From: Flavihumibacter fluvii
GTDB lineage: Bacteria; Bacteroidota; Bacteroidia; Chitinophagales; Chitinophagaceae
Direction of reading: 5' to 3'
Assembly: GCF_018595675.2 (NCBI RefSeq)
Contig: NZ_CP092333.1
Coordinates: 4,612,001 to 4,676,000, forward strand
Length of the DNA: 64,000 bases
The position numbers and the translations under genes were made by a program. The notes under the pieces are model-generated. The model was not told the origin of the DNA. It saw nothing but the letters and a program-made list of their open reading frames with translations, and made no database searches. Position 1 is the first letter of the stretch. Every line of letters begins with the position of its first letter. Shown piece after piece: positions 23,364-49,787 of this stretch.

Positions 23364-23456
23364 GGGGTATATAAAACATTTGATAAACAATCAGTTCTAA
23401 TCAATATGCACCAGGTAGGTAGGGTTTTATGGGTCAGGAAATATGTCAATTTACCC

Positions 23457-23464: not shown

Positions 23465-23559
23465 CCCACGCTGTAAAGACAATTTGTCTAACGAAAATAA
23501 AATAGAGATTGATTTAGCTTATGCATTCGATAATACTAAGTTGATCAGTAAATAAAAGA

Positions 23560-23594: not shown

Positions 23595-23657
23595 GTTGTA
23601 TTTGGGGTATTTAAGTGTAAGTTGTTGTAAGTCAACTTAATAGTTTAGGTTAAGGAT

Positions 23658-23750
23658 ATGATTAGGGGCAATGCTGACCTTGGTCCGTGTGACTGAGGAG
23701 GCGAAGCTATGCAGGAAAACAAGCGGGAAAAGAAAAAGCAAACTAATCAT
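23658..23750 (+). promoter_or_regulatory. Candidate structured leader RNA closing on the upxY start codon
   Basis: Three nested stems can form. P1 pairs ATGATTAG (23658-23665) with CTAATCAT (23743-23750), whose last two bases belong to the upxY ATG. P2 pairs GCA-at-GCT (23668-23675) with AGC-ta-TGC (23705-23712) across a 2x2 internal loop. P3 pairs CCTTGGTC (23678-23685) with GACTGAGG (23691-23698) around the loop CGTGT, with two G-U pairs. A purine-rich single strand (23713-23742) joins P2 to P1. No known riboswitch class was recognised. The fold is a hand prediction. Confidence 0.5.
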
Positions 23751-24264
23751 GGCGGACGAGCAACAAAATAAGCACTGGTATGCTTTGTATACAAAGCCCC
23801 GGTGGGAGAAGAAAGTATATGACCTGATTCAGCGCAGGGGAGTGGAAGGGTATTGTCCCATGAACAAAGTGCGCAAGAAGTGGACAGACAGGTTCAAGGT
23901 CATTGAAGAGCCATTGTTCAAGAGTTATTTGTTTGTTCGGGTGGATGAGCAGGAGAAAGGAGTGGTAAGGTATGTGGACGGCGTTGTGAATTATGTGTAC
24001 TGGTTGGGCAAGCCGGCAATAATCCGGGAGGATGATATTGAAAGGATCAAACGTTTTTTGAATGAATACAGTGATGTGAAAGTAGAACAGATCGGCCAGC
24101 CGCAGCCTGGCGATAAGGTGCTGATCACCGGCGGGGTCTTCATGGAGCAGGAGGGTACGGTTTTGGCAACTGATAAAAAACGGGTTGAAATATTGATAGA
24201 AAGCCTTGGTTGCAAGCTTGTTGCGCAGGTAGATAAAGATAAAGTAACAGTCAGGAAGGGCTAG
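23749..24264 (+). CDS. UpxY/LoaP-type NusG-family transcription antiterminator
   Basis: 171 aa from the ATG at 23749. HWYALYTKPRWEKKVYDLIQRRG is the NusG N-terminal fold, VRKKWTDRFKVIEEPLFKSYLFVRV the central part, and PGDKVLITGGVFMEQEGTV a KOW motif. Specialised NusG paralogues of this type sit first in capsule and exopolysaccharide operons of Bacteroidota and let RNA polymerase read through the long operon. That fits its position before wza. An ATG at 23671 would add 26 basic residues, but these lie inside the structured leader and before the conserved NusG start, so the shorter form is chosen. Confidence 0.88.
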   Translation: MADEQQNKHWYALYTKPRWEKKVYDLIQRRGVEGYCPMNKVRKKWTDRFKVIEEPLFKSYLFVRVDEQEKGVVRYVDGVVNYVYWLGKPAIIREDDIERIKRFLNEYSDVKVEQIGQPQPGDKVLITGGVFMEQEGTVLATDKKRVEILIESLGCKLVAQVDKDKVTVRKG

Positions 24265-24320: not shown

Positions 24321-25121
24321 ATGCTGAAAAAGCTTTTTCAAGGTGCAGCAATAGCCACTGCACTTTTTTTGTTAGGGTCATGTGGGGCGAGTAAGAAAAA
24401 CCACCAGGAAAGGTTACTGCTGCAGGGCATTGATACCGTCAAAAGCCTGGAGGTAATGCTTCCCCAGATCACCATCAAGAAGGGCGACCTGCTTACGATT
24501 ATGGTGTTTAGTGATAACCTGGAAGCCACTACAATCTATAACCAGCCGCAAACAGGTGGTGGGGCAACCACCAGTTCTTCTTCATCTATGACTTTATCTT
24601 CAACTGGAAGGGGCTACCTGGTGGATATTAATGGCCAGATTTACTTCCATAGTTTGGGGCTGATTAACGTAGAGGGACAAACAAAGAACCAGTTGGCTAA
24701 CCTGCTCCGGGACAGCCTCAGGCGCTATTTACAGAATCCTTATGTTACCATCCGGTACACCAATGCCCGGATTAATTTGATAGGCGAAGTGGCCAAACCC
24801 GGCATTATTGAATTGTCGGACCAAAAAATCAATATTCTGGATGCCATAGGCTTTGCCGGGGATTTTACACCATTTGGCAGGCGGGACAATGTCCTGGTAG
24901 TACGGGAGGTGGATGGCAAAAGGATTACCGGCAGGCTTGATGTACGGTCACCGGAAATTTACAGCTCGCCGTTCTTCTATTTACAACAGAACGACCTGGT
25001 TTACGTAGAACCCAATCGCAAGAAACCAACCGGTAATGAGCAGGTCTTAATGCGGAACCTTGCCATCACTACCAGCATCCTGTCGATGGTCACAATTCTT
25101 GTCACCTTACTCACCCGATAA
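24321..25121 (+). CDS. Wza-like polysaccharide export lipoprotein
   Basis: 266 aa. The signal peptide ends in a lipobox (LFLLGSCGAS), so Cys21 is expected to be lipidated. A Poly_export (BexD/Wza) domain follows (ITIKKGDLLTIMVFS, GYLVDINGQIYFHSLG, VEGQTKNQLANLL), then an SLBB-like domain (INLIGEVAKPGIIELSDQKINILDAIGFAG). A hydrophobic C-terminal segment (TTSILSMVTILVTLL) may be a membrane anchor. It should form the outer-membrane channel for the polysaccharide. It lies between upxY and wzc, the standard order. Confidence 0.9.
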   Translation: MLKKLFQGAAIATALFLLGSCGASKKNHQERLLLQGIDTVKSLEVMLPQITIKKGDLLTIMVFSDNLEATTIYNQPQTGGGATTSSSSSMTLSSTGRGYLVDINGQIYFHSLGLINVEGQTKNQLANLLRDSLRRYLQNPYVTIRYTNARINLIGEVAKPGIIELSDQKINILDAIGFAGDFTPFGRRDNVLVVREVDGKRITGRLDVRSPEIYSSPFFYLQQNDLVYVEPNRKKPTGNEQVLMRNLAITTSILSMVTILVTLLTR

Positions 25122-25136
25122 TCCAGCATATATACA

Positions 25137-27500
25137 ATGGGTACATCAATTGACAATTCATACATAAAGAAAGACGAATTTTCCCCTAAGGAATTAATCT
25201 TCAGGTACGTTAAATATATTCCCTGGGTTATCTTATCTGTCCTTGTTTTTTCCATTCTTGGATTCATTAACCTCCGCTATACGCCTAAAATTTATAGTGC
25301 CAAAGGCCAGATCATCATTAAGAATGAAGCCTCCTTCAGCACGGGTGATGAAAAGTTTAACAGCATGTTCATGATGGAGGACGGCACCAACCTGAATAAT
25401 GAAATGATCATTTTAAGGTCCACTTCCATGGTTCAAAGAGTGGTTAAGGAACTTGGCCTGGAAACCATGTACACTGAAGTGGGAAAAGTGCGCTCAACTT
25501 TATTGTACAGGACCAGCCCTTTGAAATTGGAAACCCTGTCCAGGAATGATTCCGCCTATGTTTACTTTAGTGTAGTGGTGGTGGACAGTTTACATTATAT
25601 ACTGAATGAGGAAGAAAAACCCAGGCTGTTTGGTTCAGTGATTGAAAACAACAATGGCGTATTCAAAATTTCCCGTACCTGGGGTAAAATAAGTGATTTT
25701 AATAACAGGGAGTTTATCATTGAAAGCCTTCCGGCTGATATCGCTACGGAAAGGGTTATCCCGTCGATTTACGTGCAGAAAACGAACGATTACTCCAATA
25801 TACTGGATATATCTTTTAGTTCCACGGATAAAGACCTGGCTGCAGACTTCATTAATTCCTTAATGCGACAATATGGTGAGTCAACCATTGAAGATAAAAA
25901 TACCATAGCGAAGAATACGATCCAGTTTATTAATGACAGGGTTGACTCCCTGCAATCTGAATTGTTTGGTGTTGAAAACAAACTGCAGCGTTTTGCAGAA
26001 AGTAATAAAGGGATAGCGCTTGAATCACAGGCCCAGTTGTATGTGGCCGGTATTTCTGACCTTGACACAAAGATCAATGAAGTGTCTGTTAAAAAGAAGA
26101 TACTGGAATGGCTGCGGTCGTATATACAAAGTGAGAAAAACCGGGAGAATACCGTGCCTGTGAACCTGGGTGTGGATGAGCCGTCAATGGCGCCATTAAT
26201 TACAGCATACAATGAAATGATGGTGCAGAAAGCGGCATTGTTGAAAACCACCACGATCAATAATCCCAAGGTGGTTGAGATGACGGTGAGTCTCGAAAAA
26301 ATGAAAGCAGATATCAGTGAGGCGCTGAATAGTGTTGAAAAATCCTATAATATTTCACTTACGCAGCTTCAGCAGCGATATGCCGAGACCGAACGTAAGG
26401 CAGTTGGAGTGCCAGGAAAAACACGGCAACAATTGAATATAGAAAGGCAGCAGAATATTAAGGAGGGCCTGTATTTGTTGCTGTTATCCAAAAAGGAAGA
26501 AGTTGCCATTGGGGCTGCGGCGGTGTTGCCAAATTCCAGGATATTGGAACAGGCCACAGAGCGGGCAAAAATCGTAGCGCCCATTGCCAGTTCGGTGTAC
26601 ATGAAATTTATATTGTTGGGCCTCGCTATCCCAATCGCCATTATTGCGCTGATTGAATTCCTGAATGATAAAATTTCGGTTCGTAATGATATTGAAAAAC
26701 AGACCAATGTTCCCATTGCGGGAGAAGTGGGTCGCTCAGTAGATGCTGCATCCTTAGTGGTGACCAAACAAAACAGGAGTTTTATTACAGAGCAATTCAG
26801 AGCGATCCGGACCAATATGACCTACCTGGCAGCAAAATCGAAAAGGCCGGTGATTTTAGTGACCTCCTCTATGAGCGGTGAGGGTAAGTCATTTGTGAGT
26901 ACCAATGTAGGCGCAGCTTTTGCCCTTGCCGGCAAAAAGACACTGATCCTTGAGTTTGATATCCGCAAGCCTAAAGTGGCGGCTAATTTGGGGATTTCGA
27001 CCAGGAAGGGCTTGTCCAGCTTTTTGATCACTAACGAAGACCCGGATGATCTCGTCTATAGTATCGAAAATGTGGACAACCTGTTTATGATCCCCTGCGG
27101 ATTAATACCGCCCAATCCTTCCGAAATGTTGTTGTTGCCCAGGATGGAAGAATTATTCGACTGGGCTAAATCAAATTATGATGTGGTGATCATTGATTCT
27201 GCACCAATTGGGGTTGTGAGTGATGCCATAACCCTGGGAAAGTATGCTGATGTGACCCTCTATATTGTCCGTATGGGTTATACCCTGAAGCGGGTGATGG
27301 AATTTATTGAAAAACTTTACCAGGAAAGACGCCTGCCCAATATGGCAGTTGTCGTGAATGATGTAGCCACAAAGGGTAGTTATGGTTACGGGTATGGCTA
27401 TGGATATGGGTATGGATCAGGAAGTTCAGTTAAGGATTATTTTGATAATACAGCCCCAAAGAAAAAATCTATATTCTCCCGGTTTTTTGGAACCAAATAA
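25137..27500 (+). CDS. Wzc-like chain-length regulator and tyrosine autokinase
   Basis: 787 aa. A Wzz domain with a first membrane segment lies near residue 25-50 and a long coiled-coil periplasmic part follows. A GNVR-type region (GVPGKTRQQLNIERQQNIKEGLY) leads to the second membrane segment near 480-500, then a BY-kinase domain. Walker A is SSMSGEGKS (about 577-585), A' is LILEFDIRKPK, and a VIIDSAPIG strand carries the Walker B Asp. The tail around 746-765 repeats YG six times (GYGYGYGYGYGYG), a tyrosine cluster for autophosphorylation. Its expected phosphatase is encoded at 49788. Confidence 0.92.
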   Translation: MGTSIDNSYIKKDEFSPKELIFRYVKYIPWVILSVLVFSILGFINLRYTPKIYSAKGQIIIKNEASFSTGDEKFNSMFMMEDGTNLNNEMIILRSTSMVQRVVKELGLETMYTEVGKVRSTLLYRTSPLKLETLSRNDSAYVYFSVVVVDSLHYILNEEEKPRLFGSVIENNNGVFKISRTWGKISDFNNREFIIESLPADIATERVIPSIYVQKTNDYSNILDISFSSTDKDLAADFINSLMRQYGESTIEDKNTIAKNTIQFINDRVDSLQSELFGVENKLQRFAESNKGIALESQAQLYVAGISDLDTKINEVSVKKKILEWLRSYIQSEKNRENTVPVNLGVDEPSMAPLITAYNEMMVQKAALLKTTTINNPKVVEMTVSLEKMKADISEALNSVEKSYNISLTQLQQRYAETERKAVGVPGKTRQQLNIERQQNIKEGLYLLLLSKKEEVAIGAAAVLPNSRILEQATERAKIVAPIASSVYMKFILLGLAIPIAIIALIEFLNDKISVRNDIEKQTNVPIAGEVGRSVDAASLVVTKQNRSFITEQFRAIRTNMTYLAAKSKRPVILVTSSMSGEGKSFVSTNVGAAFALAGKKTLILEFDIRKPKVAANLGISTRKGLSSFLITNEDPDDLVYSIENVDNLFMIPCGLIPPNPSEMLLLPRMEELFDWAKSNYDVVIIDSAPIGVVSDAITLGKYADVTLYIVRMGYTLKRVMEFIEKLYQERRLPNMAVVVNDVATKGSYGYGYGYGYGYGSGSSVKDYFDNTAPKKKSIFSRFFGTK

Positions 27501-27533
27501 AAAAACCGGCTTATTAATTAATCAAGAAAACGA

Positions 27534-28424
27534 ATGACGACTGAACAAATAAAGTTCAACCCTGAAGCTGACATCGCTGGTAATTCCGAATGGACCACCG
27601 TCATCCAGCCCAAACGCGGTTGGCTGGATATTGACCTCAAGGAGATTTGGCGGTACAGGGACCTGCTGATGTTATTGGTGAAAAGGGATTTTGTTGCCTT
27701 CTATAAGCAAACCATCCTGGGTCCTGTCTGGTTTTTTATCCAACCTTTACTAACTACACTGATGTTCCTGGTTGTTTTTGGCCGCATTGCCAGGTTGTCA
27801 ACGGATGGCGTACCACCGATCTTGTTTTACCTGGCCGGGGTTACCTGCTGGAGTTATATTTCAGAATGCCTGACAAAGACTTCGGATACATTTATAACGA
27901 ATGCAAATATTTTCGGTAAAGTGTATTTTCCGAGGGTGGTCATACCGGCAGCTGTCGTGATCTCCAACCTTGTCAGGTTTAGCATTCAGCTATGTTTATT
28001 TTTGTCGGTATGGGTGTATTACCTGACACGCACCGGATCTACCATCCATCCCAACCGTATGATATTACTGGTTCCTTTCCTTGTGCTGATCATGGCATTA
28101 TTGAGCCTGGGGCTTGGCATTATCTTTTCATCCCTGACGACAAAATACCGGGATTTGCGTTTTTTGCTGACATTCGGTATTCAATTACTGATGTATGCTA
28201 CGCCTGTCGTGTACCCGTTGTCATTAACCAGTGAGAAATACCGGTGGCTGATCCTGGCCAATCCTTTTTCAGCTTTAGTGGAAACCTTCCGGTATGCCTT
28301 TACAGGCAGCGGTACGTTCAGCTGGTATAACCTGGGATACAGTGCATTGTGCATGCTGGTCATCCTGGCAACAGGTATTATTATTTTCAATAAGGTGGAA
28401 AGGACCTTCATGGATACAGTTTAA
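27534..28424 (+). CDS. ABC-2 type polysaccharide export permease (Wzm-like)
   Basis: 296 aa. Six membrane segments are visible. The family signature region WRYRDLLMLLVKRDFVAFYKQTILGPVWFFIQP is followed by GVTCWSYISECLTKTSDTF and LRFLLTFGIQLLMYATPVVYPLS. It should form the inner-membrane channel of an ABC exporter with the next gene product. Wzm proteins export completed O-antigen or teichoic acid chains from the cytoplasm. It starts 33 bp after wzc. Confidence 0.9.
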   Translation: MTTEQIKFNPEADIAGNSEWTTVIQPKRGWLDIDLKEIWRYRDLLMLLVKRDFVAFYKQTILGPVWFFIQPLLTTLMFLVVFGRIARLSTDGVPPILFYLAGVTCWSYISECLTKTSDTFITNANIFGKVYFPRVVIPAAVVISNLVRFSIQLCLFLSVWVYYLTRTGSTIHPNRMILLVPFLVLIMALLSLGLGIIFSSLTTKYRDLRFLLTFGIQLLMYATPVVYPLSLTSEKYRWLILANPFSALVETFRYAFTGSGTFSWYNLGYSALCMLVILATGIIIFNKVERTFMDTV

Positions 28425-28437
28425 AAAAGTTATACGT

Positions 28438-29718
28438 ATGTCAGAAGTAGCCATAATGGCGGAGAATGTTTCGAAACTGTACCGTTTAGGGGAGATAGGC
28501 ACAGGTACCCTTTCCCATGATCTAAACCGCTGGTGGGCATCCATAAGAGGTAAGGAAGATCCTTATATGAAATTGGGCCAGTCCAACAAAAGGGATGAAA
28601 AAGGCAGTGACTGGGTATGGGCCTTGCAGGATATCAATTTTGAATTGAATGAAGGCGAGGTGCTTGGGATTATCGGCCGAAATGGTGCAGGCAAATCCAC
28701 TTTACTCAAATTACTCTCCCGCATTTCAAACCCAACGACCGGTGTAATAAAAGCCCGCGGCCGGATAGCCAGTTTACTGGAAGTGGGCACCGGGTTTCAC
28801 CCGGAATTAACCGGCAGGGAAAATATTTTTTTAAATGGGGCGATACTGGGCATGACCAAGGCAGAGATCAAACGGAAATTTGATGAGATCGTGGACTTTG
28901 CCGGCGTTACCCGTTATATAGATACTCCGGTGAAACGGTACAGCAGCGGGATGTATGTGCGGCTGGCCTTTGGCGTGGCTGCTCACCTGGAGCCTGAAAT
29001 CCTGATTGTAGATGAAGTGTTGGCCGTAGGGGATGCGGAATTCCAGAAAAAAGCCCTGGGGAAAATGAAATCAGTCAGCCAGAATGATGGCCGGACTGTT
29101 TTATTTGTCAGCCATAATATGGCCAGCATCAGTACGCTTTGCACCAAAGGATTGATGATGCAAAATGGACAGGTGGCCTACCAGGGTGATATTGAGGAAA
29201 CCATCAGGCAATACAACCAGAGTTCGGGATCAGGGTCAAACCAGGTAGATGGGTTTTATGACCTGGAGAAGTTTAATGACCCGGCTTTGAATATAAAAAT
29301 TACGAGCGCCCAGATCTATTGTGATAAAGTGCGGACCGGTACCCTGTTAACCGGATCAAATGTTGTCTTTGAATTTTCCTATACCTTAAAGAACGAAGCA
29401 ACCTTAAGAGAATTTGGGATTATGGTGAAGAATGGCGCCGAAGAATTTGTTTTTGAAGTGGACACCAATCACCTGGGTGAAAAGATCGATGACCGGGTTA
29501 CGGAAGGCACGATCCGGTTCGAGTTTCCCGAGTTCAGGTTATTTGGTAATGAAGATTTTATCATTGACTATTATTTTGGTGATGCCCAGTTGAGGCGCTC
29601 CTTCCTGTTTAAGGACCTGATTCGGTTCAGCCTCCTGAGTACGGATGTATATAATTCAGGAAAGATTTTACAGTCCAAGTACAATAAGTTTTACCAGGAT
29701 GTTATTTTTTCACAATAA
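28438..29718 (+). CDS. ABC transporter ATPase for polysaccharide export (Wzt-like)
   Basis: 426 aa from the ATG at 28438; the longer frame from 28294 overlaps wzm and is rejected. Walker A is GRNGAGKSTLLK, the signature motif is YSSGMYVRLAFG, Walker B is ILIVDEVLAVGD and the H-loop is VLFVSHNMAS. After residue 270 a beta-rich C-terminal domain (IKITSAQIYCDK, NVVFEFSYTLKN, FIIDYYFGDAQ) resembles the Wzt C-domain that recognises the glycan's non-reducing end. That implies coupling of export to a terminal modification. Confidence 0.9.
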   Translation: MSEVAIMAENVSKLYRLGEIGTGTLSHDLNRWWASIRGKEDPYMKLGQSNKRDEKGSDWVWALQDINFELNEGEVLGIIGRNGAGKSTLLKLLSRISNPTTGVIKARGRIASLLEVGTGFHPELTGRENIFLNGAILGMTKAEIKRKFDEIVDFAGVTRYIDTPVKRYSSGMYVRLAFGVAAHLEPEILIVDEVLAVGDAEFQKKALGKMKSVSQNDGRTVLFVSHNMASISTLCTKGLMMQNGQVAYQGDIEETIRQYNQSSGSGSNQVDGFYDLEKFNDPALNIKITSAQIYCDKVRTGTLLTGSNVVFEFSYTLKNEATLREFGIMVKNGAEEFVFEVDTNHLGEKIDDRVTEGTIRFEFPEFRLFGNEDFIIDYYFGDAQLRRSFLFKDLIRFSLLSTDVYNSGKILQSKYNKFYQDVIFSQ

Positions 29719-29734
29719 GAACTGCAGCTAAGAT

Positions 29735-30865
29735 TTGAATAACCAGGGCGCTGCCAAAAGTGCATATTACCCACAGCTCGATTTCCTGCGGTTTGTTGCC
29801 GTTACCCTGGTGATCCTGGAGCATTGGTTCGGATCTGCATTATCCAGGAATTTTGAATTTGGGTATTTAGGAGTATTGTTGTTTTTTGTCTTAAGCGGCT
29901 TCCTGATTTCCGGGATACTTTTGAAGAATAGGGCCATGATAGATGCCGGAATGGTAAGCAAAAGGGAAACGCTGAAGGTGTTTTATATACGCAGGACTTT
30001 AAGGATATTCCCGGTATATTATTTCCTGTTACTCTTCTTGTTTATATTTTCATTTGAAGGCATCCGGCAAAAGGCCTTATGGTATTTTCTATACGCTTCC
30101 AATATATATACCTATATACAGCAGGAATGGGATGGCATGATTGGCCCATTCTGGTCATTGGCGGTAGAAGAACAATTTTACCTGGTCTGGCCCTTGCTGA
30201 TGCTGGTTATGCCGGTAAGAAAAATGCCGGCATTTTTCGGTACTTGCCTGCTCCTCGCACCCGTTTTCAGGCTATTGTCCATTGTCTTTGCCAATCATTT
30301 TTCTGAAGCCCCGTTGGATACTTTATCCATGCGGGTGCTGATGCCATCCTGCATAGATTCTTTTGCAGCGGGTGGCTTGCTCGCATTCTGGCGCCAGGAC
30401 GAAAATACAGGCAGTAAATGGTTGAAGTATTTAAATAATAAGTACTTAGTATCAGGACTGGTTGTTATCGCTTATATTTTATTAAGGTATAAGGAAAACT
30501 TCCTGTTTTATTTATTGTTCCCATCCGTGTTTAGCTTTTTGAGCGTAACCATGATAGCTGCCCTGCTGGTAAAAGCAAAAGGATTAAAAGGTGTGATATT
30601 TAATAATCCGTTCCTGTTACATCTTGGAAAAATTAGTTATGGCCTGTATTTGTTCCATGGACCCTTTCCGTTGATCTTCAGCATAGTGGATGTTGTATTA
30701 GGAAAGCTGCATAAAGGTTTTACAATATATCATATACTGGCGGGGTTGCCTAAGACAACCAGGAGCCTTGTTTGGGTAGTTTACCTGGTTGGGCTGGCCA
30801 GCCTTTCGTATTATATCCTTGAAAAGCCCTTTAATAAGTTAAAGGATAAATTTTTGTATAAATGA
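29735..30865 (+). CDS. Acyltransferase family 3 membrane protein (OafA-like), first copy
   Basis: 376 aa with about ten membrane segments. Characteristic motifs are QLDFLRFVAVTLVILEHWFG, VLLFFVLSGFLISGILL, the basic loop FYIRRTLRIFPVYYF, and GPFWSLAVEEQFYLVWPLLML. The family transfers acetyl or other acyl groups to surface sugars. A TTG start at 29735 is used because no ATG precedes the conserved N-terminus. It overlaps the following glycosyltransferase gene by 4 bp. Confidence 0.88.
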   Translation: MNNQGAAKSAYYPQLDFLRFVAVTLVILEHWFGSALSRNFEFGYLGVLLFFVLSGFLISGILLKNRAMIDAGMVSKRETLKVFYIRRTLRIFPVYYFLLLFLFIFSFEGIRQKALWYFLYASNIYTYIQQEWDGMIGPFWSLAVEEQFYLVWPLLMLVMPVRKMPAFFGTCLLLAPVFRLLSIVFANHFSEAPLDTLSMRVLMPSCIDSFAAGGLLAFWRQDENTGSKWLKYLNNKYLVSGLVVIAYILLRYKENFLFYLLFPSVFSFLSVTMIAALLVKAKGLKGVIFNNPFLLHLGKISYGLYLFHGPFPLIFSIVDVVLGKLHKGFTIYHILAGLPKTTRSLVWVVYLVGLASLSYYILEKPFNKLKDKFLYK

Positions 30866-31884
30866 GTGTGGATGGCCGGGCGCCAATGGTTTCGGTGGTA
30901 ATGCCGGTATATAATGCAGCCCCATTTTTGAGGCCGGCAATTGACAGCATATTGAAGCAGACTTATCCTGATTTTGAGTGTATTTTAATAAATGATGGTT
31001 CAACGGATAGTTCGGCGGAGATCATCCGATCCTATTCAGACCCACGGATAAAGTTAATTGAACAGCAAAACCAGGGTGTAGCTAAAACCCTGAATAATGC
31101 CCTGGGCTATATCCGGGGCAAGTATACCTGGCGGCATGATGCTGATGATACCAGCCTTCCCGGAAAACTTGAATCGCAGGTTGCTTTCCTGGAGGCCCAT
31201 CCTGAATTTGCGTTATGTGCAACCCAGGTTGCATTCATGACTGAACGGGGCAAGATCGCATGGGATTATCGCCAGCCCCGGAATGATTTTTTTGGCGATA
31301 AGCCTTATTTGGAGGTAAGCCGTGCCGATTTTAAACCCTATAGCCCAATCACGCATGCAACAGTATTGATCCGGACCGATGCCTTAAAGGATTTGGGCGG
31401 GTATAGAACTGCTTTTAAGACCGCCGAGGATGTAGACCTATGGTTGCGGCTTTTACAGAAGTATAGGGCCGTTGTACTGAATCAATGTGATTATTTTGTG
31501 CGGTTGAACAGGAGTTCCGCAACACAAGTGCAGGGTTGGAAGAATGCGTTCTTTAGGAATCTTGCTTTTGAATATTACGACCAGCGCAATAATAAGGGGC
31601 AGGATAACCTGGAAAGAGGGGAGCAGGTGGTTTTGCCAGAACCACCAACAATTAACCACCAAAACAGGGAAACCTTAACTGGCAAGGTTATGCGGCATGA
31701 TTTATTGGATTACAATTATCGCCTCCATTTGAATGCAAAGGATTGGTTGGCCTGTGTAGAAATGGCAAAATATTCAATAAGGGACGGATGGAAGCTGGCA
31801 GAAACATGGAAGGCATTGGTCTTTCCATTTTTAGCGCCATGGTTTGTTGGAAGTATTGTGAAAATGAAAAAACGATTTAAATAA
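30862..31884 (+). CDS. GT2-family glycosyltransferase
   Basis: 340 aa. GT-A fold motifs: VSVVMPVYNAAPFL, then ILINDGSTDSS and the metal-binding D-x-D region WRHDADDTSLPGKLE. The C-terminal part has FKTAEDVDLWLRLLQKY, holding the ED acid-base motif, then a helical tail with a weak hydrophobic end. It transfers a sugar from a nucleotide donor to the growing repeat unit; donor and acceptor are unknown. Its start overlaps the preceding acyltransferase stop (ATGA type), so they are translationally coupled. Confidence 0.88.
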   Translation: MSVDGRAPMVSVVMPVYNAAPFLRPAIDSILKQTYPDFECILINDGSTDSSAEIIRSYSDPRIKLIEQQNQGVAKTLNNALGYIRGKYTWRHDADDTSLPGKLESQVAFLEAHPEFALCATQVAFMTERGKIAWDYRQPRNDFFGDKPYLEVSRADFKPYSPITHATVLIRTDALKDLGGYRTAFKTAEDVDLWLRLLQKYRAVVLNQCDYFVRLNRSSATQVQGWKNAFFRNLAFEYYDQRNNKGQDNLERGEQVVLPEPPTINHQNRETLTGKVMRHDLLDYNYRLHLNAKDWLACVEMAKYSIRDGWKLAETWKALVFPFLAPWFVGSIVKMKKRFK

Positions 31885-31888
31885 TCAT

Positions 31889-32986
31889 TTGGAAACAAAA
31901 GAGAACCATAAGTTTTATACACAACTGGAAGGGCTAAGAGGTATTGCTGTTCTGATGGTATTAACCTCCCATTTTATTATAATGAAAAACTTTCCCGGAT
32001 TGAAATTTCTTGAACTGGGTTTCTGGGGTGTAAATATATTTTTTGTACTCAGTGGTTTTTTAATTACTGAAATATTGTTGAAGGAGATTTATGCAAATAA
32101 TAGTGCAAAAGACATATTGCGCCGTTTCTATTTGAAACGGACCTTACGCATCTTCCCGATCTATTATTTGATTATTATATTATTAGCCATATTTAAAGTC
32201 GGCGGCACTGAATCGGCGCTTAAATGGTCCCTGACTTATACGCTTAATATCCAGGAGATTTGGTTTGGCGGCATACCAAATGTTATTTTTCATTTTTGGT
32301 CGTTATGTGTGGAAGAGCAATTCTATATCATTTGGCCATTTTTGTTACTACTGGTTCCGTCATTCTTTCATAAGAGGATCATATTATTTATACTATTTGG
32401 TGCCGCCTTGCTGCGATTTTGTTTTGCCTATTGGCAGGTAAAAAATTATATTTCATTCAATCATGATTCCATGTTTACCTGTATGGATGCGCTTGGTACC
32501 GGGGCATTACTTGCTTACTTGAAACTGAATGAGCCCGAGCGGTTAAAAAAAATATTAGAGAGATTTTGGGTGCCGTTACTACTAATTTCATCCTTTTTTT
32601 TGATAAGTTATTATAGCATAAAGTACGAAATTGTAATGCAGTCCCTTGGTCGGCTAGTTTGTGCTTTCACTGGTTTTTATTTGGTTGGTTGGGGCGCAAT
32701 GCACATTGAGACAAGGTTGGGTAAAGTTTTTGAAAACCCCGCGGCCAGGTATGTGGGAAAGATCTCCTATGGGGTCTATTTGTTCCATTGGATTTTGTAT
32801 TTTCTATATGCAAAGCAATTCAGTGAATGGTTCAAAGGGTTTTTTAAAGGGAAATCAACTTTGATATATTTTAATACATGGTTTTTTACCTTTATTGTTT
32901 TTGTGTTGGCTACAATTGCTGTCGCTTCATTGTCATATTATTTAATAGAAAAACCACTTCTGCGATTAAAAAGCAGGATATCTTAG
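31889..32986 (+). CDS. Acyltransferase family 3 membrane protein, second copy
   Basis: 365 aa. QLEGLRGIAVLMVLTSHFI, FWGVNIFFVLSGFLITEILL, FYLKRTLRIFPIYYLI and FWSLCVEEQFYIIWPFLLLL are the family motifs, on a multi-pass protein. The start is a TTG at 31889. It is similar in design to the copies at 29735 and 48745, and three such proteins in one locus suggest several acylation positions on the glycan. The sequence is more AT-rich than the first copy. Confidence 0.88.
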   Translation: METKENHKFYTQLEGLRGIAVLMVLTSHFIIMKNFPGLKFLELGFWGVNIFFVLSGFLITEILLKEIYANNSAKDILRRFYLKRTLRIFPIYYLIIILLAIFKVGGTESALKWSLTYTLNIQEIWFGGIPNVIFHFWSLCVEEQFYIIWPFLLLLVPSFFHKRIILFILFGAALLRFCFAYWQVKNYISFNHDSMFTCMDALGTGALLAYLKLNEPERLKKILERFWVPLLLISSFFLISYYSIKYEIVMQSLGRLVCAFTGFYLVGWGAMHIETRLGKVFENPAARYVGKISYGVYLFHWILYFLYAKQFSEWFKGFFKGKSTLIYFNTWFFTFIVFVLATIAVASLSYYLIEKPLLRLKSRIS

Positions 32987-32992
32987 AATTTA

Positions 32993-34006
32993 ATGCGTAA
33001 GGTTTCTGTAATTGTCCCTTTGTTTAACAGGGCGGACATAATATCCCATACGATTGATAGCGTCATCAACCAAACCCATGAAAATTGGGAATTGCTGATT
33101 GTTGATGATGAATCATCAGATAACAGCGTTCAGGTTGTGACTGCTTATTCGGTAAATGATGACCGGATAAATTTGATTCAAAGAGTTACCCAGACCAGGG
33201 GTGGGAATGCCTGCCGGAATATCGGCTTAAAACAGGCAACCGGGGATTATGTAATATTCCTCGATTCTGATGATTTGCTTAAACCGCATTGTTTTGAAAC
33301 GAGAATTAAAAGTATTGAAAGCGCACAGGGGTTGAATTTTGCGGTTTTCCCCGGTGCTACTTTTCAAGATGATAGGGGGACGCCGCGTCATTTCTGGAAT
33401 ATCGAAACCGGGCTGGAAGATTATATCCGGTTTTTACAGTTGGATAGTCCCTGGCAAACTACAGGGGTGATTTGGACAAGGGATTTCCTGTTTGAGCGTA
33501 ATTTATCCTGGGATGAGCGCCTGGCTATATGGCAGGATGTGGATTTCCACTTGAATATATTGCTTTTAAATCCTGTTTATAAAGTGTTTTGGGAAATGGA
33601 TATAGATTATCTTATCAGGGAGAATAGTGCAGACAGCGTAAGCAGGGTTGGCTATTTTAAAGCGGATAAAGTAAATTCGCGCGTTAGCTTTTTCCAAAAG
33701 TATCTTACTGTCTTATCTGAAAAGAAAAAAGGCACAAGGCAATTGAGGAAGGTTTTTTTCATTGTACTGAAGTCCCTTTCAGTTCATAGAAATTGGCCCC
33801 TGGTTAAAGAGATCATTGCAAAAAGTTTAACATATGGAGTGATAACTAAATATGAATCAGTTCGGTTGTTATGTGCGGTTTTAATGGCTAAGATTACCCG
33901 GAATAGAATACTTGTTTTCCCTGGAAAGAAGATTGAATTATGGATAGACAATCAACCTGCTGATACTTTACAAAAAGTGCCTTATGTTGAACGTAATTCC
34001 CAATAG
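32993..34006 (+). CDS. GT2-family glycosyltransferase
   Basis: 337 aa. VSVIVPLFNRADIISHTIDSVINQT and LLIVDDESSDNS form the nucleotide-binding half, GDYVIFLDSDDLLKP the metal-binding DSDD, and AIWQDVDFHLNILLL the later acidic motif. The C-terminal 90 residues are helical and basic. Starts with ATG 6 bp after the acyltransferase gene. Substrates are not predictable from sequence. Confidence 0.88.
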   Translation: MRKVSVIVPLFNRADIISHTIDSVINQTHENWELLIVDDESSDNSVQVVTAYSVNDDRINLIQRVTQTRGGNACRNIGLKQATGDYVIFLDSDDLLKPHCFETRIKSIESAQGLNFAVFPGATFQDDRGTPRHFWNIETGLEDYIRFLQLDSPWQTTGVIWTRDFLFERNLSWDERLAIWQDVDFHLNILLLNPVYKVFWEMDIDYLIRENSADSVSRVGYFKADKVNSRVSFFQKYLTVLSEKKKGTRQLRKVFFIVLKSLSVHRNWPLVKEIIAKSLTYGVITKYESVRLLCAVLMAKITRNRILVFPGKKIELWIDNQPADTLQKVPYVERNSQ

Positions 34007-34008
34007 TA

Positions 34009-34989
34009 ATGTCAGCTGAACTGAAGAAAGACATCCTTATTTCTATTGTTATCCCTGTAAAAAACGGTGATAAATGGATTGAGAAATGTATTCAAGGTAT
34101 CATTGATCAGACACTATTCCCGAAATCTGAGATAATTGTGCTTGATTCTGGTTCCACTGACAGCACATTAGCGATATTGGCAAATTATCCTGTTCAGGTC
34201 ATTCATATTCCTCCAAATGAATTCAACCATGGTCTAACCAGGAATCACGGGGTACAGGTAGCCAAAGGCAAATTTGTCGTAATGACTGTTCAGGATGCAA
34301 ATCCGGTTGATAACCGATGGCTGGAGAAATTGTTAGAGTGTTTTGAGGATGAAGCAGTTGCCGGAGTATGTGGTCAGCAAATTGTGCCACATGATATTGA
34401 TAAGAATCCTGTAGATTGGTATTTGCCTGTATCTGAACCAGCTATAAAAATATTTAATTTTTCAAAGGAAGAGTTTGATTTATTTTCTCCTGATCAAAAA
34501 GCTGCAATATGCAGTTGGGATAATGTGAATGCAATGTATAGGAGAATATCATTATTACAAATCCCATTTAGAAATTCCTTGTTTGGTGAAGATGCAATTT
34601 GGGCGCTGGACGCTATTCAAATGGGAAAAACAATAGTTTACCAGCCAAGTGCCAGGGTCTTTCATTATCACAATGAAAACAGGGATTTTGTATTCAAAAG
34701 ACATTTTACTACTAATTATTTCAGGTATATATATTTTGGGGTAATACCTGCGAAACCTAAGTTAACCTTGAGAAGAAGAATCAGTATAATTAAGATCATT
34801 TTTTTTCGGACTAAAAATATTAGTCTAAGGAATCGGTGCTTATGGTGGAAGTATAATATAGAGAGATTTAAAGGGAAATCAGATGCCTATAAAATATTTA
34901 TAGAATCAATTAAAATAAGTAAGGAAGAACTGGATGCTGTTCATGAAAAGTATTGTGGTATTCCTCCTCTCGCCCCAAAATCCAAATAA
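34009..34989 (+). CDS. GT2-family glycosyltransferase (rhamnosyltransferase-like)
   Basis: 326 aa. ISIVIPVKNGDKWIEKCI and IIVLDSGSTDSTLAIL open the GT-A domain. The FNHGLTRNHGVQVAKGKFVVMTVQDANP segment is typical of the WbbL/rhamnosyltransferase-like branch, with QDANP in place of the classic DxD. SLFGEDAIWALDAIQMG provides the later acidic motif. The gene is distinctly AT-rich, as are the following two, which points to separate acquisition of this block. Donor sugar is uncertain. Confidence 0.82.
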   Translation: MSAELKKDILISIVIPVKNGDKWIEKCIQGIIDQTLFPKSEIIVLDSGSTDSTLAILANYPVQVIHIPPNEFNHGLTRNHGVQVAKGKFVVMTVQDANPVDNRWLEKLLECFEDEAVAGVCGQQIVPHDIDKNPVDWYLPVSEPAIKIFNFSKEEFDLFSPDQKAAICSWDNVNAMYRRISLLQIPFRNSLFGEDAIWALDAIQMGKTIVYQPSARVFHYHNENRDFVFKRHFTTNYFRYIYFGVIPAKPKLTLRRRISIIKIIFFRTKNISLRNRCLWWKYNIERFKGKSDAYKIFIESIKISKEELDAVHEKYCGIPPLAPKSK

Positions 34990-35053
34990 CTAATTGGTTC
35001 ATTAATTTGCTACTTAATATTTTCGGGTTTTAGATTGTAAATTTCTATAATAA

Positions 35054-35695
35054 ATGAATAGAATTAAATTCTTTTTAAATCATCCTACTCAATTTTTTGC
35101 AGTTGTATTAGCTATTTTTTTTCCCAGATTTAGGTTCTTTAGGGAAACTAATGAGTATAGTGATAAGATTACATTTAATGTTTGGTTTATTCAAAAGGTA
35201 TTGGGCTTTAATCGAAATGCATATTGGCCAATGCATCACTCAAGTAGGGTGGTAGGTGTTGAAAATATAGTTATTGGAATAGATACAAACCCAGGATTTC
35301 ATCCTGGATGTTATATTCAGGGGACTGGAAAACTTGTCATAGGGGATTATTCTAGAATAGGGGCAAATACTGGTTTGTTAAGTGGAAACCATAGTGTATA
35401 TGATCATAAGATATATGAAGCAAAGGAAACCATAATAGGTAAATATTGCTGGATCGGTATGAATTCTGTTATACTTCCCGGGGTTGTTCTTGGTGATTAC
35501 ACTAAAGTAGCAGCAGGTTCAGTAGTCACAAAGTCGTTTCCTGCTGGATACTGTATAATTGGTGGTAATCCAGCCAAGATTATAAAGGAATTGGATCCCG
35601 ATAAAGTTGTCAGTCATAAGTATAAATCGGAGTATGTTGGTTACATCCCAAAGAATAAATTCGACTCCTTCCGGAAGAAACATTTAAACTCTTAA
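35054..35695 (+). CDS. Left-handed beta-helix acyltransferase
   Basis: 213 aa. After an N-terminal helical part come hexapeptide-type turns (VVGVENIVIGIDTNPGFHPG, LVIGDYSRIGANTG) and the catalytic His segment LSGNHSVYDH. KETIIGKYCWIGMNSVILPGVVLGDYTKVAAGSVVTKSFP is the CoA-binding coil. This is the maltose/serine/WcaF-type acetyltransferase pattern, expected to O- or N-acetylate a sugar in the cytoplasm. AT-rich like its neighbours. A 64-bp gap separates it from the preceding gene, with no clear promoter seen. Confidence 0.8.
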   Translation: MNRIKFFLNHPTQFFAVVLAIFFPRFRFFRETNEYSDKITFNVWFIQKVLGFNRNAYWPMHHSSRVVGVENIVIGIDTNPGFHPGCYIQGTGKLVIGDYSRIGANTGLLSGNHSVYDHKIYEAKETIIGKYCWIGMNSVILPGVVLGDYTKVAAGSVVTKSFPAGYCIIGGNPAKIIKELDPDKVVSHKYKSEYVGYIPKNKFDSFRKKHLNS

Positions 35696-35706
35696 TACCT
35701 AGTATA

Positions 35707-36540
35707 ATGAATGCACCTCCTTTGGTAAGTGTATTAATGACGTCCTATAACAGGGAAAAGTATATTACAAATGCAATTCAAAGTGTACTTGATTCAGATT
35801 TTACGGATTACGAATTGATAATTGTTGATGATATTTCAAAGGATAATACATTTGCGATTGCAAAAGAATTTGAAAAAGTGGATTCACGTGTAAAAGTATT
35901 CCAAAACGCTAAGAATCTAGGGGATTATCCAAATAGGAATTGTGCTGCTTCATATGCTAAGGGAAAATATTTAAAGTATGTAGATGCGGATGATTTGATA
36001 TATCCCTGGGGTTTGGGCCTTCTTGTTAAAATGATGGAGTTATTTCCAAATGCTGGTTATGGACTTTGTTCATTGAAACAGGATGATAATCGAATATACC
36101 CATTTGAACTTTCACCTTCAGAGGCGTATAAATATAACTATAAAGGATCTGGTATTTTTAATAAAGCACCATTGTCTTCTATCATTTTGAGGGAAGCATA
36201 CCTGAAAGTTGGTGGATTTAGGGAAATCAGGATGGCTGGTGATTTTGATATGTGGCATCGGTTATCACAAATTTATCCTGTTGTTTTAATGCCCCAAGGA
36301 ATTGTTTGGTATAGAAAACATAGTGAACAGGAAATGAATTCACATAAAAATTATGTTCAAGTGTATGAAGGGCTTAAAATTGGTTATTTGAAATCCGATT
36401 TATGTCCCCTTGATAAGGAATTTATTAGCCAGATATTGAAAAAAAATAAAAGGCATATACAGCGTAAACTTGCTCTTGATTTGATAAAATTGAGATGGTC
36501 AGATTTTAGCATTGGTGTAAAAAAATTAAAGCAATATTAA
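35707..36540 (+). CDS. GT2-family glycosyltransferase
   Basis: 277 aa. VSVLMTSYNREKYITNAIQSVL, LIIVDDISKDNT and GKYLKYVDADDLIYPWGL give the GT-A donor and metal sites. MAGDFDMWHRLSQIYPVVLMP is the later acidic motif, and a short basic helical tail ends the protein. It is shorter than the other GT2 proteins here but complete. AT-rich. It is followed after 2 bp by a GT4 gene. Confidence 0.86.
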   Translation: MNAPPLVSVLMTSYNREKYITNAIQSVLDSDFTDYELIIVDDISKDNTFAIAKEFEKVDSRVKVFQNAKNLGDYPNRNCAASYAKGKYLKYVDADDLIYPWGLGLLVKMMELFPNAGYGLCSLKQDDNRIYPFELSPSEAYKYNYKGSGIFNKAPLSSIILREAYLKVGGFREIRMAGDFDMWHRLSQIYPVVLMPQGIVWYRKHSEQEMNSHKNYVQVYEGLKIGYLKSDLCPLDKEFISQILKKNKRHIQRKLALDLIKLRWSDFSIGVKKLKQY

Positions 36541-36542
36541 AC

Positions 36543-37949
36543 TTGTTGCCTAGTAATATTTCTGGAACTCAGGACATCATTTTCATTTCTTTTGAGTTCC
36601 CTCCCTTGAATGTTGGCGGCGTTTTCCGCCCCATGAAGTTTGCGAAATATCTTCCGGATTATGGTATCAGGCCACATGTGTATGCACTTGACCCATCAGA
36701 TTATCCCAAGATATTCAGTAAAGTGAATGTTGATGAGTCAATGCTGCATGACCTCAATAAGGTTGACCTGGTTATTAACAAAGTAAAAATTGATCCACTA
36801 TCCAAATTGGATACCTCTAAGTTCAAAAAATTTGTACGAATTTATTTTAGCTTGTACCGGGGTAGTGAATATTTACTTTGGAGAGATCACCTGATGCAGC
36901 AAATAAAGAAGGATGCTGCTACAAAAGACTTTAAGGCAGTGCTTGTTACTGCTCCACCTTTTGGGATGATCGCATTGGGTTACGAGATAGCTAAAAAGTT
37001 CAATATCCCGCTGATCCTCGACATGCGTGATGCATGGGCTTTGTGGAATACTTCGCCCTATGGCAGTTACCTGCATTATTTGGCTACCGTTAAAAAGGAA
37101 AAAAAATATTTTGAGTTTGCCAGCCGTGTTATAGCCACTTCTGACCAAACCATTGCTGATTGGCTGAACCTTCATCCCAGCCTTCCTGCCGGAAAATTCA
37201 CCTGTATTACCAATGGGTATGACAGGGCTGCATTAGAAGTTGATTTTTCTCCATTTGAACTTCGGCCAATTAACGGCAACAGGATTTTTAAGATCGTGTA
37301 TGTTGGCAGTTTTTATTATTCGCCCGCCGCTAGGAAAGAAATGCTTGAACCGGTATACAAGAAGAAAGGCCATAGAATATTTCAATACTATCCAAGAAAA
37401 CAAGATTGGCTTTACCGAAGCCCTTATTTTTTCTTTAAAACAATTCAACGGGTTTTGGAATTGATGCCTGAATTACGACAAAAATTGCTGATCGAATTTG
37501 CGGGGAACCCACAAGCCTGGATGGATGAAATGATAAAGGAGGCCGGATTGACAGACATCGTTTCACAAATAGGGTTTGTGAGTCATAAAGAATCACTGGC
37601 ACTACAAAAAAATGCAGATGCGTTATTAATCACTTCTGCAAAAGTTGAAGGAGGCAGGGATTGTTTTATTGCAGGGAAAACATTCGAATATCTTACCATG
37701 AACAAACCAATTTTAGCATTTGTCTCAGAGGGCTCACAAAAGGACATCCTGGTTCAGTCTGGCTTGTCTGTAATGTTTAATCCCGACGATATTGAGCATT
37801 CTGCAAAGACGTTTATATCACTTTTATCTGAAGGCCACCATTTTATACCAGATAGTCAATTCCTTAATAGGTTTGATAGGAATCACTTAACCCAGGAGTT
37901 GTCGGAAGTAATTAAGGATTCAATAATTGAACACCAAGCGGTTCTGTAG
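36543..37949 (+). CDS. GT4-like glycosyltransferase
   Basis: 468 aa. The N-terminal Rossmann domain begins DIIFISFEFPPLNVGGVFRPMKFAKYLPDYG. A GT4-type donor domain follows (KIVYVGSFYYSP, IGFVSHKESLALQKNADALLITS, GKTFEYLTMNKPILAFVSEGS), with the nucleotide-binding acidic residue expected in the GKTFEYL region. A proline- and tyrosine-rich insert between the domains is unusual. The start is a TTG at 36543. GC content returns to the level of the rest of the locus within this gene. Confidence 0.8.
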   Translation: MLPSNISGTQDIIFISFEFPPLNVGGVFRPMKFAKYLPDYGIRPHVYALDPSDYPKIFSKVNVDESMLHDLNKVDLVINKVKIDPLSKLDTSKFKKFVRIYFSLYRGSEYLLWRDHLMQQIKKDAATKDFKAVLVTAPPFGMIALGYEIAKKFNIPLILDMRDAWALWNTSPYGSYLHYLATVKKEKKYFEFASRVIATSDQTIADWLNLHPSLPAGKFTCITNGYDRAALEVDFSPFELRPINGNRIFKIVYVGSFYYSPAARKEMLEPVYKKKGHRIFQYYPRKQDWLYRSPYFFFKTIQRVLELMPELRQKLLIEFAGNPQAWMDEMIKEAGLTDIVSQIGFVSHKESLALQKNADALLITSAKVEGGRDCFIAGKTFEYLTMNKPILAFVSEGSQKDILVQSGLSVMFNPDDIEHSAKTFISLLSEGHHFIPDSQFLNRFDRNHLTQELSEVIKDSIIEHQAVL

Positions 37950-37952
37950 GGG

Positions 37953-39158
37953 ATGAAAATTCTTTTTATCACAACATCTAACCTGGCTACAAACCCCAGG
38001 TTATTAAAGGAGGTCAGGCTGGCAATTGACAAGGGATTTACAGTAACTGTCATTTGCTTCTCTTTCAATAACTGGAGTAAGCAGATCAATGATGAATTGA
38101 TCAGTGAACTTTCGGGTAAAGCCGATATTCACACAATTTCAATGCGGTCTGCATCATCCTTTTCCTGGATCAATGCTTCAATAATCGAACGGACAGGCAG
38201 AATATTTGGAAAGCTGCATAGTAGTCCAAGGCTGGCTGCCATTTCAAACAAGAGAAGCCTTTTGCTCTTGCAGGCCCTGAATTATTTCCATAAACATACC
38301 TTCGATTTTGTTGTAGCGCATAACCCGGGGGCACTTTATCCTGCCTGGCGGTTTGCCAGGAAAAAAGGGATACCCTATTGTTTTGATATTGAGGATTACC
38401 ACCCTGGTGAAACAGCAAGTGGTGCTGAAGCGGACAAGATCCGTAGCGTAATGCGGTATTATTTAAGAGATGCGGCCTATTTGTCTGCCGCTTCTCCACT
38501 AATTCTCCAACATACTTTGGAGGATATCGGTGATTTTACCCATCCCGCGATCGTGGTACATAATTTTTTTCCTACCGGGGAATTTATTCCACCGAAACCA
38601 GATTACAACAATCCAAAACTGAAAATAATCTGGTTTTCGCAAAACATTAATCATGGCCGTGGATTAGAAGAAATTGCAGCGATACTTCCCCAATTTGACG
38701 ATCGGGTTGAACTTCACCTGATCGGTAACCTCAACGCGGATTATTATGAAAAATACTTAAAAGGGATAGGCAGTATTAAGATCCTTTCGCCTGTTGCACA
38801 GAAACAGTTACACCATGAACTTGCCAGTTATGATGTTGGCCTTGCGATAGAACCATCGAAAGACCTAAATAATGAATTGGCTGTCTCCAATAAACTGAAT
38901 GCATATATCCAAGGTGGCGTTTATGTGTTGGCATCGGATACAAAGGGCCAGCGCCAGCATATGATGGATCATCAAGTTTCGGGAGAACTTGTTAATTTGA
39001 AAAGTAAACCAGCATTGACTGCTTTTTTTAACCAGGCGATCCAGCAAAAGGATCAATTGAGGCAAAGCATGGCAGACCGTTTTGAAAAACAAAAAAAGTA
39101 TTCCTGGGAAACAGAAGCTGAAAAGCTATTGCAGGTATGGACAAGAATTGTGTTATGA
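37953..39158 (+). CDS. GT4-family glycosyltransferase
   Basis: 401 aa. KILFITTSNLATNPRLLKEV opens a GT-B fold. DFVVAHNPGALYPAWRFARKKGIPYCFDIEDYHPGE is the acceptor-side domain. The donor side runs from KIIWFSQNINHGRGLEEI to NELAVSNKLNAYIQGG, with an acidic E in the usual E-x7-E zone replaced by an ELAVSNK form. It overlaps the next gene by 4 bp (ATGA). Sugar specificity is unknown. Confidence 0.82.
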   Translation: MKILFITTSNLATNPRLLKEVRLAIDKGFTVTVICFSFNNWSKQINDELISELSGKADIHTISMRSASSFSWINASIIERTGRIFGKLHSSPRLAAISNKRSLLLLQALNYFHKHTFDFVVAHNPGALYPAWRFARKKGIPYCFDIEDYHPGETASGAEADKIRSVMRYYLRDAAYLSAASPLILQHTLEDIGDFTHPAIVVHNFFPTGEFIPPKPDYNNPKLKIIWFSQNINHGRGLEEIAAILPQFDDRVELHLIGNLNADYYEKYLKGIGSIKILSPVAQKQLHHELASYDVGLAIEPSKDLNNELAVSNKLNAYIQGGVYVLASDTKGQRQHMMDHQVSGELVNLKSKPALTAFFNQAIQQKDQLRQSMADRFEKQKKYSWETEAEKLLQVWTRIVL

Positions 39159-41590: not shown

Positions 41591-41647
41591 TAAAACGCTA
41601 TCAAGAATAAACTATCATATTTCTTTCTGATTGTAAATATCGGCGTA

Positions 41648-44003: not shown

Positions 44004-44071
44004 AAAAAGTATTTTATTTAACCATCCTCCTTTGCAGTTGGCATCAGTTGCCAATGCTTTTACAAAGATGA
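44000..44071 (+). CDS. 23-codon ORF, possibly a decayed signal-peptide remnant
   Basis: It starts ATGA-overlapped with the preceding stop and encodes MKKVFYLTILLCSWHQLPM followed by LLQR, which looks like the first part of a secretion signal. A second frame through the same bases gives CQCFYKDDPDCKMVK and runs into the next gene's frame. It may be the trace of a deleted small secreted protein or chance. No RNA signature seen. Confidence 0.2.
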   Translation: MKKVFYLTILLCSWHQLPMLLQR

Positions 44072-44084
44072 TCCGGATTGCAAA

Positions 44085-45254: not shown

Positions 45255-45268
45255 ACGCCTTGTTGAGT

Positions 45269-45826: not shown

Positions 45827-45836
45827 ATTATTTATT

Positions 45837-46586: not shown

Positions 46587-46616
46587 CATATCATTAAATT
46601 TTTTAGTGCCAATTGG

Positions 46617-46624
46617 TAATTTTG
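46617..46624 (+). promoter_or_regulatory. -7 box TAATTTTG upstream of gmd
   Basis: Perfect TAnnTTTG box 28 bp before the gmd ATG, in the 66-bp gap after the last glycosyltransferase gene. The -33 region is T-rich (AAATTTTTTAG) without a clean TTTG. It suggests that gmd-fcl have their own promoter inside the locus. Confidence 0.5.
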
Positions 46625-46652
46625 CACCCAATATTGCGTTTAAACTTATTGT

Positions 46653-47771: not shown

Positions 47772-47772
47772 A

Positions 47773-48693: not shown

Positions 48694-48744
48694 TCCTGAA
48701 AAACCCTAAACCAAATTTTATCAGGACAAAGAACCCAATTCTGC

Positions 48745-49770: not shown

Positions 49771-49787
49771 GCGAATTAACTTGCGTT

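Follow-up and report, generated by a model that had tools for sequence, protein, structure and literature searches.

The upxY leader and its predicted outer stem

The 64,000-nucleotide stretch of the Flavihumibacter fluvii genome analyzed here (contig NZ_CP092333.1, positions 4,612,001 to 4,676,000 of the forward strand), hereafter the window, carries on its plus strand upxY (23749..24264), which encodes a NusG paralog of 171 aa plus stop codon. The later open reading frames (ORFs) of a polysaccharide locus follow on the same strand (24321..50534) and are presumed to form an operon; they were assigned from the ORF list and, for six ORFs, from Pfam, and include an export protein, a Wzz/kinase, an ABC transporter, and transferases. 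The UpxY protein scored 138 bits with NF033644 antiterm_UpxY (cut-off 100), also matched PF02357, and had RfaH as its best PDB match (E 2.9e-11). upxY is likely the operon's first gene, and its product the reader of the element described below. Between the upstream gene and the leader lies an inverted repeat, AAAGGCA...TGCCTTT (23560-23594), which is probably the end of the upstream transcription unit; a terminator scan flagged only a minus-strand terminator-like part in this region.

A preliminary description of the leader proposed a structured RNA in which an 8-bp outer stem, P1, enclosed nested stems and a purine-rich joining strand and masked the start codon. The strands of P1, ATGATTAG (23658..23665, plus strand) and CTAATCAT (23743..23750, plus strand), are perfect complements, and the 3' strand extends over the A and T of the upxY start codon, ATG 23749-23751. 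Such a stem was nevertheless found to be near chance: after dinucleotide shuffling of 23640-23760, 13 of 500 sequences contained a perfect stem of at least 8 bp, as did 14 of 160 tiles of 121 nt cut from the window. Sister UpxY leaders gave it no support, the start-codon region pairing upstream over at most 6 bp in the 12 leaders tested, several of which are closely related among themselves (no start was obtained for a 13th). We therefore judged P1 to be a coincidence. The predicted leader fold, which contains both P1 and an inner stem, CCUUGGUC/GACUGAGG, had a free energy of -25.3 kcal/mol (z -2.12), equaled or bettered by 8 of 200 shuffles; with wider flanks, z was -1.47, and 13 of 200 shuffles did as well or better. 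Masking of the start codon by P1 was without comparative support, and the purine-rich joining strand was not conserved, either among relatives read side by side or in the flanks of other sites. The statement that the leader belongs to no known riboswitch class was borne out by Rfam, which gave 0 matches at gathering score for the window and for 20 element loci. At E<=10, region 23400-24400 gave seven matches, all far under gathering scores and none credible, and a known riboswitch was accordingly rejected.

A conserved 24-nt element and its covarying hairpin

The conserved part of the leader is a 24-nt element, TGTGACTGAGGAGGCGAAGCTATG (23688..23711, plus strand; consensus TGKGACTGAGGNGGCGAAGCYNTG). 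A DNA search with leader and gene gave matches in 16 of 39 relatives; apart from the coding region, it returned short, nearly identical stretches of roughly 25 nt at 23688-23712, often with a second occurrence in the same genome. Reading the relatives side by side delimited an island, TG(G/T)GACTGAGGNGGCGAAGC(T/C)NTG, with differing flanks. In the genus, a pattern covering a 22-nt part of the element, with at most 2 mismatches, was found in 15 of 15 genomes, at 67 sites versus 1 for the reversed pattern. We then used R1, a sequence-only model of the 24-nt element whose E-values are rough. R1 matched the window only at 23688-23711 (30 bits, E 3e-8); across the family it matched 168 of 294 genomes and 71 of 101 genera at E<=0.05, the chance expectation being about 15 of the 294 genomes provided that the rough E-values hold, and across the class it matched 48 of 395 genomes at E<=0.001. 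Scanning named genomes for exact matches yielded at least 120 stretches; among the matches listed, 117 were under names taken as Bacteroidota, two were labeled Terriglobia or Acidobacteriota, and one was unlabeled. When the loop was left free and one mismatch allowed, the element was found in 16 of 395 phylum genomes, 7 of them outside the window's class; of these 7 matches, 1 lay ahead of a NusG-like ORF and 3 had no suitable ORF. The element is common to many Bacteroidota and occurs ahead of capsule operons. Its flanks are not conserved: every flanking column was at or below 0.43 bits across 207 non-redundant sites, the highest being the A before the element, at a frequency of 0.60. Kinship was handled only by dropping redundant sites, from 287 to 216 for the flank set and from 299 to 223 for the covariation set. 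Within the 24-mer, sites chosen by pattern or by R1 are biased; the flanks, the 5' arm, and the free-loop and free-core searches are free of this bias, as is, in part, the UpxY-first sample described below.

The 3' arm of an RNA hairpin makes up the first half of the element; the matching 5' arm is variable and covaries. In the window, the 5' arm CCTTGGTC (23678..23685, plus strand) and the 3' arm GACTGAGG (23691..23698, plus strand) form 8 of 8 pairs, G-U counted, around a loop at 23686-23690. Helices of at least 7 bp were present at 25% of 216 sites. Shuffling the upstream sequence lowered this share to 6-9%, reversing the arm to 6%, and substituting the adjacent 30 nt further upstream to 5%; 57% of the actual sites had fewer than 6 consecutive pairs. 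Among 223 sites, the mean folding (MFE) z was -1.33, with 87% below zero, at least half of the arm was paired in 91% versus 65%, and 172 sites had at least 5 bp of helix across the mid-arm, whereas shuffles averaged 141 and never exceeded 161. Covariation was examined at the 41 sites with a changed arm by permuting arms among sites: the real pairing score, 505, exceeded those of all 2000 permutations (mean 440, sd 12.5; 0/2000 reached it). Replacing the true arm by the consensus arm weakened pairing at 16 of these sites, strengthened it at 8, and left it unchanged at 17. Covarying pairs included GACCGAGG with TTTCGGTT (L043), GGGTGAG with CTTACCC (L045), and GACTGACG with CGTTGGTC (L049). Compensatory changes among homologous leaders, which the outer stem did not display, were thus found for the inner stem, and of the nested stems originally proposed it is CCUUGGUC/GACUGAGG that stood, as the covarying hairpin attached to the 24-nt element. 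Pairing alone would permit the 3' arm to drift, yet it is nearly invariant, which suggests a further constraint.

The second half of the element contains the core GGCGAAGCT (23700..23708, plus strand), in which GCGAAGC (23701-23707, plus strand) may form a mini-hairpin with a GAA triloop, G:C and C:G pairs, and an outer G-T. GCGAAGC has been described as an extra-stable DNA mini-hairpin, of a class defined by a GNA loop and at least two closing G-C pairs (PMC4686876). With the loop left free, 20 phylum hits read GAA (16) or GGA (4), with no T in the loop. With all nine core positions left free, the family gave 60 hits versus 5 for the reversed control: GGCGAAGC was present in 52 of the 60, C-GRA-G was retained in 58, and 56 contained GCGAAGC or GCGGAGC, sequences that conform to the GNA mini-hairpin definition and may fold accordingly. 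The eight exceptions comprised two GGCGGAGC and one TGTGAAGC; one AGCGAAGC and one AGCGGAGC, each facing a T and so forming an A:T third pair; GGACGAAGT and CACGAAGTG, with A:T in place of G:C one base downstream; and one unrelated sequence inside an ORF. The second core pair changed on both sides in 2 of the 60 hits. In a set of 223 sites selected for A or G as first base, G-T formed the outer third pair at 165, G-C at 54, A-T at 2, and G-A at 2. A DNA folding program, whose parameters may lack a triloop bonus, did not predict the mini-hairpin of GGCGAAGCT (0 kcal/mol) and gave -0.6 kcal/mol for GGCGAAGCC and -0.9 for the ops 13-mer. The mini-hairpin would act as DNA, a form that comparison cannot separate from the RNA form.

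When GGCGAAGCYNTG is aligned to the ops sequence GGCGGTAGCGTG, G1 G2 C3 G4 and T11 G12 agree. E. coli RNA polymerase has been reported to pause at U11 of ops, the non-template strand of which forms a small hairpin read by RfaH (PMC5995543). By this common register, a pause is predicted at 23710..23711 (plus strand), with the RNA 3' end at T23710 and G23711 as the next base, 12 nt past the hairpin.

Genes associated with the element

The element is strongly oriented with respect to genes. A codirectional ORF of at least 150 aa started within 400 nt at 181 of 211 non-redundant sites, versus 28 for the reversed element, and 5 of the 211 sites on the same strand and 1 on the opposite strand were buried in ORFs of at least 200 aa. 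Distances from element to start ranged from -29 to 396 nt (median, 40), and the frames were evenly distributed (69/67/65). The element is therefore neither coding nor tied to the start codon, and translation from 23671 as the purpose of the region was likewise unsupported. A leader peptide was also rejected, on the free distance and frame and on the sequence itself: TGGGACTGAGGAGGCGAAGC encodes MGLRRRS after A, but the commoner T variant reads ATG TGA. A Bacteroidota-type promoter box, TAnnTTTG, was mildly enriched (99 upstream versus 37 downstream) and ended between -150 and -10 at 36 of 217 sites, weak evidence for a promoter; a sigma-70 promoter scan was uninformative.

Next genes were taken mechanically for 220 sites, of which 19 had no ORF; 200 of the resulting 201 ORFs were searched, the very long ORF at L207 being left out. 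NusG paralogs were by far the commonest next gene, at 83 of 200 sites (42/100 and 41/100), the remaining 117 being not NusG-like. Other next genes included polysaccharide export and SLBB proteins, flippases, Wzz, sugar-nucleotide enzymes, asparagine synthases, and six integrases. NusG was absent from the 25 families listed for 100 upstream neighbors (the first 100 of 168). Twenty of these 100 had Wzc-kind ATPase domains, and some transferases were found as well, which places some of the elements within polysaccharide loci.

Among 149 sampled class genomes, 49 had a UpxY match at E<=1e-6 and 19 had the element at E<=0.001, and all 19 were among the 49 (P 3.9e-11, kinship uncorrected). The other 30 UpxY-positive genomes had no element at this threshold, and divergent elements or other modes must therefore exist. 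Starting from UpxY instead, we sampled 30 loci out of 50 UpxY matches, using a scoring matrix trained on sites that include some from the same genomes: 13 loci, the window's own included, had a high-scoring element (7 before the gene and 6 after), 3 further loci had it with the arm-core spacing lengthened by one or two bases, and 14 were element-less even with spacing variants allowed. In an alignment of 24 UpxYs, the stretches W-S-D-R-x-K and R-x-E-K-K were nearly invariant and are candidates for nucleic-acid or polymerase contact.

Several other genes recur after the element. A protein family starting like ML(E/D)TLITSKTRIKLLLKFFLN was seen at L125, L128, L131, L227, L248, L270, and L338; the L125 member matched neither Pfam nor NCBIfam, and the L131 member likewise lacked an NCBIfam match. 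The family is possibly a regulator of polysaccharide loci. Small ORFs directly follow the element at L104, L105, L129, and L225, and we take them to resemble 23S-rRNA-intervening or GxxExxY proteins; PF05635 was the next gene at 2 of 100 sites. Tyrosine recombinases came first after the element at 6 of 200 sites, and one is found in the window's own genome (L055:870-1577), where the site lies within a 104-aa ORF. They recall the invertases near Bacteroides capsule loci.

In this genome, R1 gives 8 candidate sites at E<=0.5, and a search for the NusG family found two genes, NusG and the window's UpxY. With the two weakest sites left out, the next genes outside the window encode a flippase-like protein, the tyrosine recombinase, a product that matches phage-tail-type sheaths, and, at two sites, proteins lacking any family match. 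If a single UpxY serves several sites, it would have to act in trans, like RfaH. The element at L054:1379-1402 (G000:C1:628378) precedes ORF 1448-3832, whose N-terminal part matches the tail-type sheaths 8bky and 9ezm and, weakly, Afp2 and Pvc2; a contractile injection system under UpxY control is possible. The same changed arm, GACCGATG, occurs at L325:1501-1524 and L326:1501-1523 (G000:C1:3824363 and 3800654), facing an upstream partner of the TTTCGGTT type; it is the next ORFs of these two sites that lack family matches.

Proposed recruitment of UpxY and related systems

Computation established the conservation and orientation of the element, the covariation of its hairpin, the conservation of the mini-hairpin sequence, and the association and co-occurrence with UpxY; pausing, UpxY binding, and antitermination are carried over from work on RfaH and Bacteroides UpxY. 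We propose, with a probability of roughly 70%, that the element is an ops-like pause and UpxY recruitment site, which is autoregulatory, is read via the mini-hairpin, and serves antitermination of the locus. RNA polymerase would start upstream, and the transcribed CCUUGGUC/GACUGAGG hairpin would fold behind it. Polymerase would then pause on GGCGAAGCTATG, in the same register as at the ops pause of RfaH, with the RNA 3' end at T23710. The non-template DNA strand, exposed in the bubble of the halted enzyme, could fold into the GCGAAGC mini-hairpin. UpxY may be recruited at this pause through recognition of the mini-hairpin, possibly together with upstream duplex DNA or the RNA hairpin, and would stay with polymerase to suppress termination across the polysaccharide locus of about 26 kb. 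Suppressed termination would cover upxY itself and so create positive feedback. The other element sites would probably be served in trans by the same UpxY, as RfaH does, since the NusG-family search found one UpxY besides NusG. The preliminary description was thus partly supported, being right in kind and wrong in mechanism: a conserved structured regulatory element, namely the inner hairpin with the 24-nt element, does lie in the upxY leader, and the autoregulation through a NusG paralog that it had considered is the best explanation.

An unlikely alternative is that UpxY reads an RNA signal, the covarying hairpin with the GGCGAAGC stretch, the non-template DNA hairpin being incidental. The hairpin covaries and is within the transcript, a leader hairpin is also linked to LoaP (PMC12691694), and the DNA and RNA forms of the core are inseparable by comparison; against this, the core matches ops in its pause register and obeys the triloop rule (GNA) of extra-stable DNA, and the near-invariance of the 3' arm suggests constraint beyond pairing. 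Still less credible is a signal for pausing or attenuation whose reader is some other factor, such as NusG, NusA, or an unknown protein, with UpxY merely present in like operons. Such a signal would fit the 117 of 200 sites where the next ORF is not NusG-like, but it sits poorly with the presence of UpxY in all 19 element genomes of the 149-genome sample and with the predominance of NusG paralogs among next genes.

Two further explanations are very improbable. A start-codon-masking switch or riboswitch closed by P1 has in its favor that the stem exists and overlaps the start codon; it was refuted comparatively, the stem being near chance and missing in 12 sister leaders, the start distance and frame being free, and Rfam giving no match. 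A site for recombination or transposition, dispersed by mobile DNA, would suit the integrases that were the next gene at 4/100 and 2/100 sites and at one own-genome site, but was rejected on the strong orientation to gene starts and the covarying 5' arm. Carriage by phages was also rejected, viral contigs having no exact match to the 24-nt element, which speaks against mobile DNA as well.

The recruitment site proposed here is of a kind already known, since work on ops and on Bacteroides UpxY exists. According to a 2020 survey (PMC7593976), divergent NusG paralogs occur in about half of Bacteroidota, RfaH was the only such paralog with recruitment known in detail, and recruitment was unknown for paralogs encoded within their own operons. 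We consider it an even bet that the covarying RNA hairpin, a consensus-type pause, and the d(GCGAAGC)/d(GCGGAGC) mini-hairpin form a recruitment code for UpxY-type NusG paralogs, near-invariant across much of Bacteroidota, which would define trans regulons of capsule, exopolysaccharide, and other operons, here perhaps including a contractile injection system. One sequence marking likely targets would permit UpxY regulons to be proposed from genomes alone, and the element gives a regulatory context to operons of unknown function. The 24-bp site is directly testable in vitro. If the non-template strand does fold into d(GCGAAGC), a structure noted in chemistry for its extraordinary stability would gain a natural role in transcription.

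One close likeness is to ops/JUMPstart of RfaH in Escherichia coli: a short leader element, long operons, and a NusG paralog, with G1 G2 C3 G4 ... T11 G12 in identical register. ops serves RfaH in trans and is described as forming a small hairpin in the exposed non-template strand (PMC5995543). The agreement of G1 G2 ... T11 G12 is one of sequence register only, and the ops core GGCGGTAGCGTG itself was not seen, 0 of the 60 free-core hits reading as ops. Unlike ops, the element described here has a GAA/GGA loop without the flipped T6, which in ops is read by H20, R23, Q24, and R73 of RfaH; two or three pairs, where only the C3:G8 pair of ops is considered relevant; an upstream half that is conserved and takes part in a covarying RNA hairpin; and a likely reader, UpxY, that often sits within the target operon. 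By a hand-counted alignment, H20 and R73 of RfaH correspond to Leu and Asp of the window's UpxY, and the protein contacts must therefore differ from those of RfaH.

In Bacteroides, UpxY is reported to prevent early termination in the 5' leader of capsule operons (Chatzidaki-Livanis 2009, 2010, via reviews), and UpxY contact with upstream duplex DNA is mentioned in PMC12691694. Each UpxY there is stated to serve its own locus, with UpxZ blocking the others (PMC7593976). The element described here differs in being a near-invariant 24-mer common across orders and present at several loci per genome, and the window lacks the order upxZ after upxY, its next large ORF (24321-25121) encoding the polysaccharide export protein. 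Saba 2024 (Nat Commun 15:10862) reportedly describes roles of the non-template strand, the duplex, and hairpins in UpxY recruitment, the hairpins being in non-template DNA and in nascent RNA. The literature searched contained no description of the 24-nt element, the Saba 2024 sequences being outside the comparison. The LoaP/dfn leader hairpin of Bacillus is alike in that a NusG paralog is linked to a leader hairpin, as outlined in PMC12691694. Unlike LoaP, the window's UpxY scores 48.1 bits to the LoaP model, for which the cut-off is 125. Finally, the hairpin-stabilized pause of the his leader has a spacing of about 12 nt between hairpin and RNA 3' end, and the RNA hairpin here likewise ends about 12 nt before the predicted RNA 3' end; unlike in the his leader, the predicted pause appears to be linked to a NusG paralog and a conserved core.
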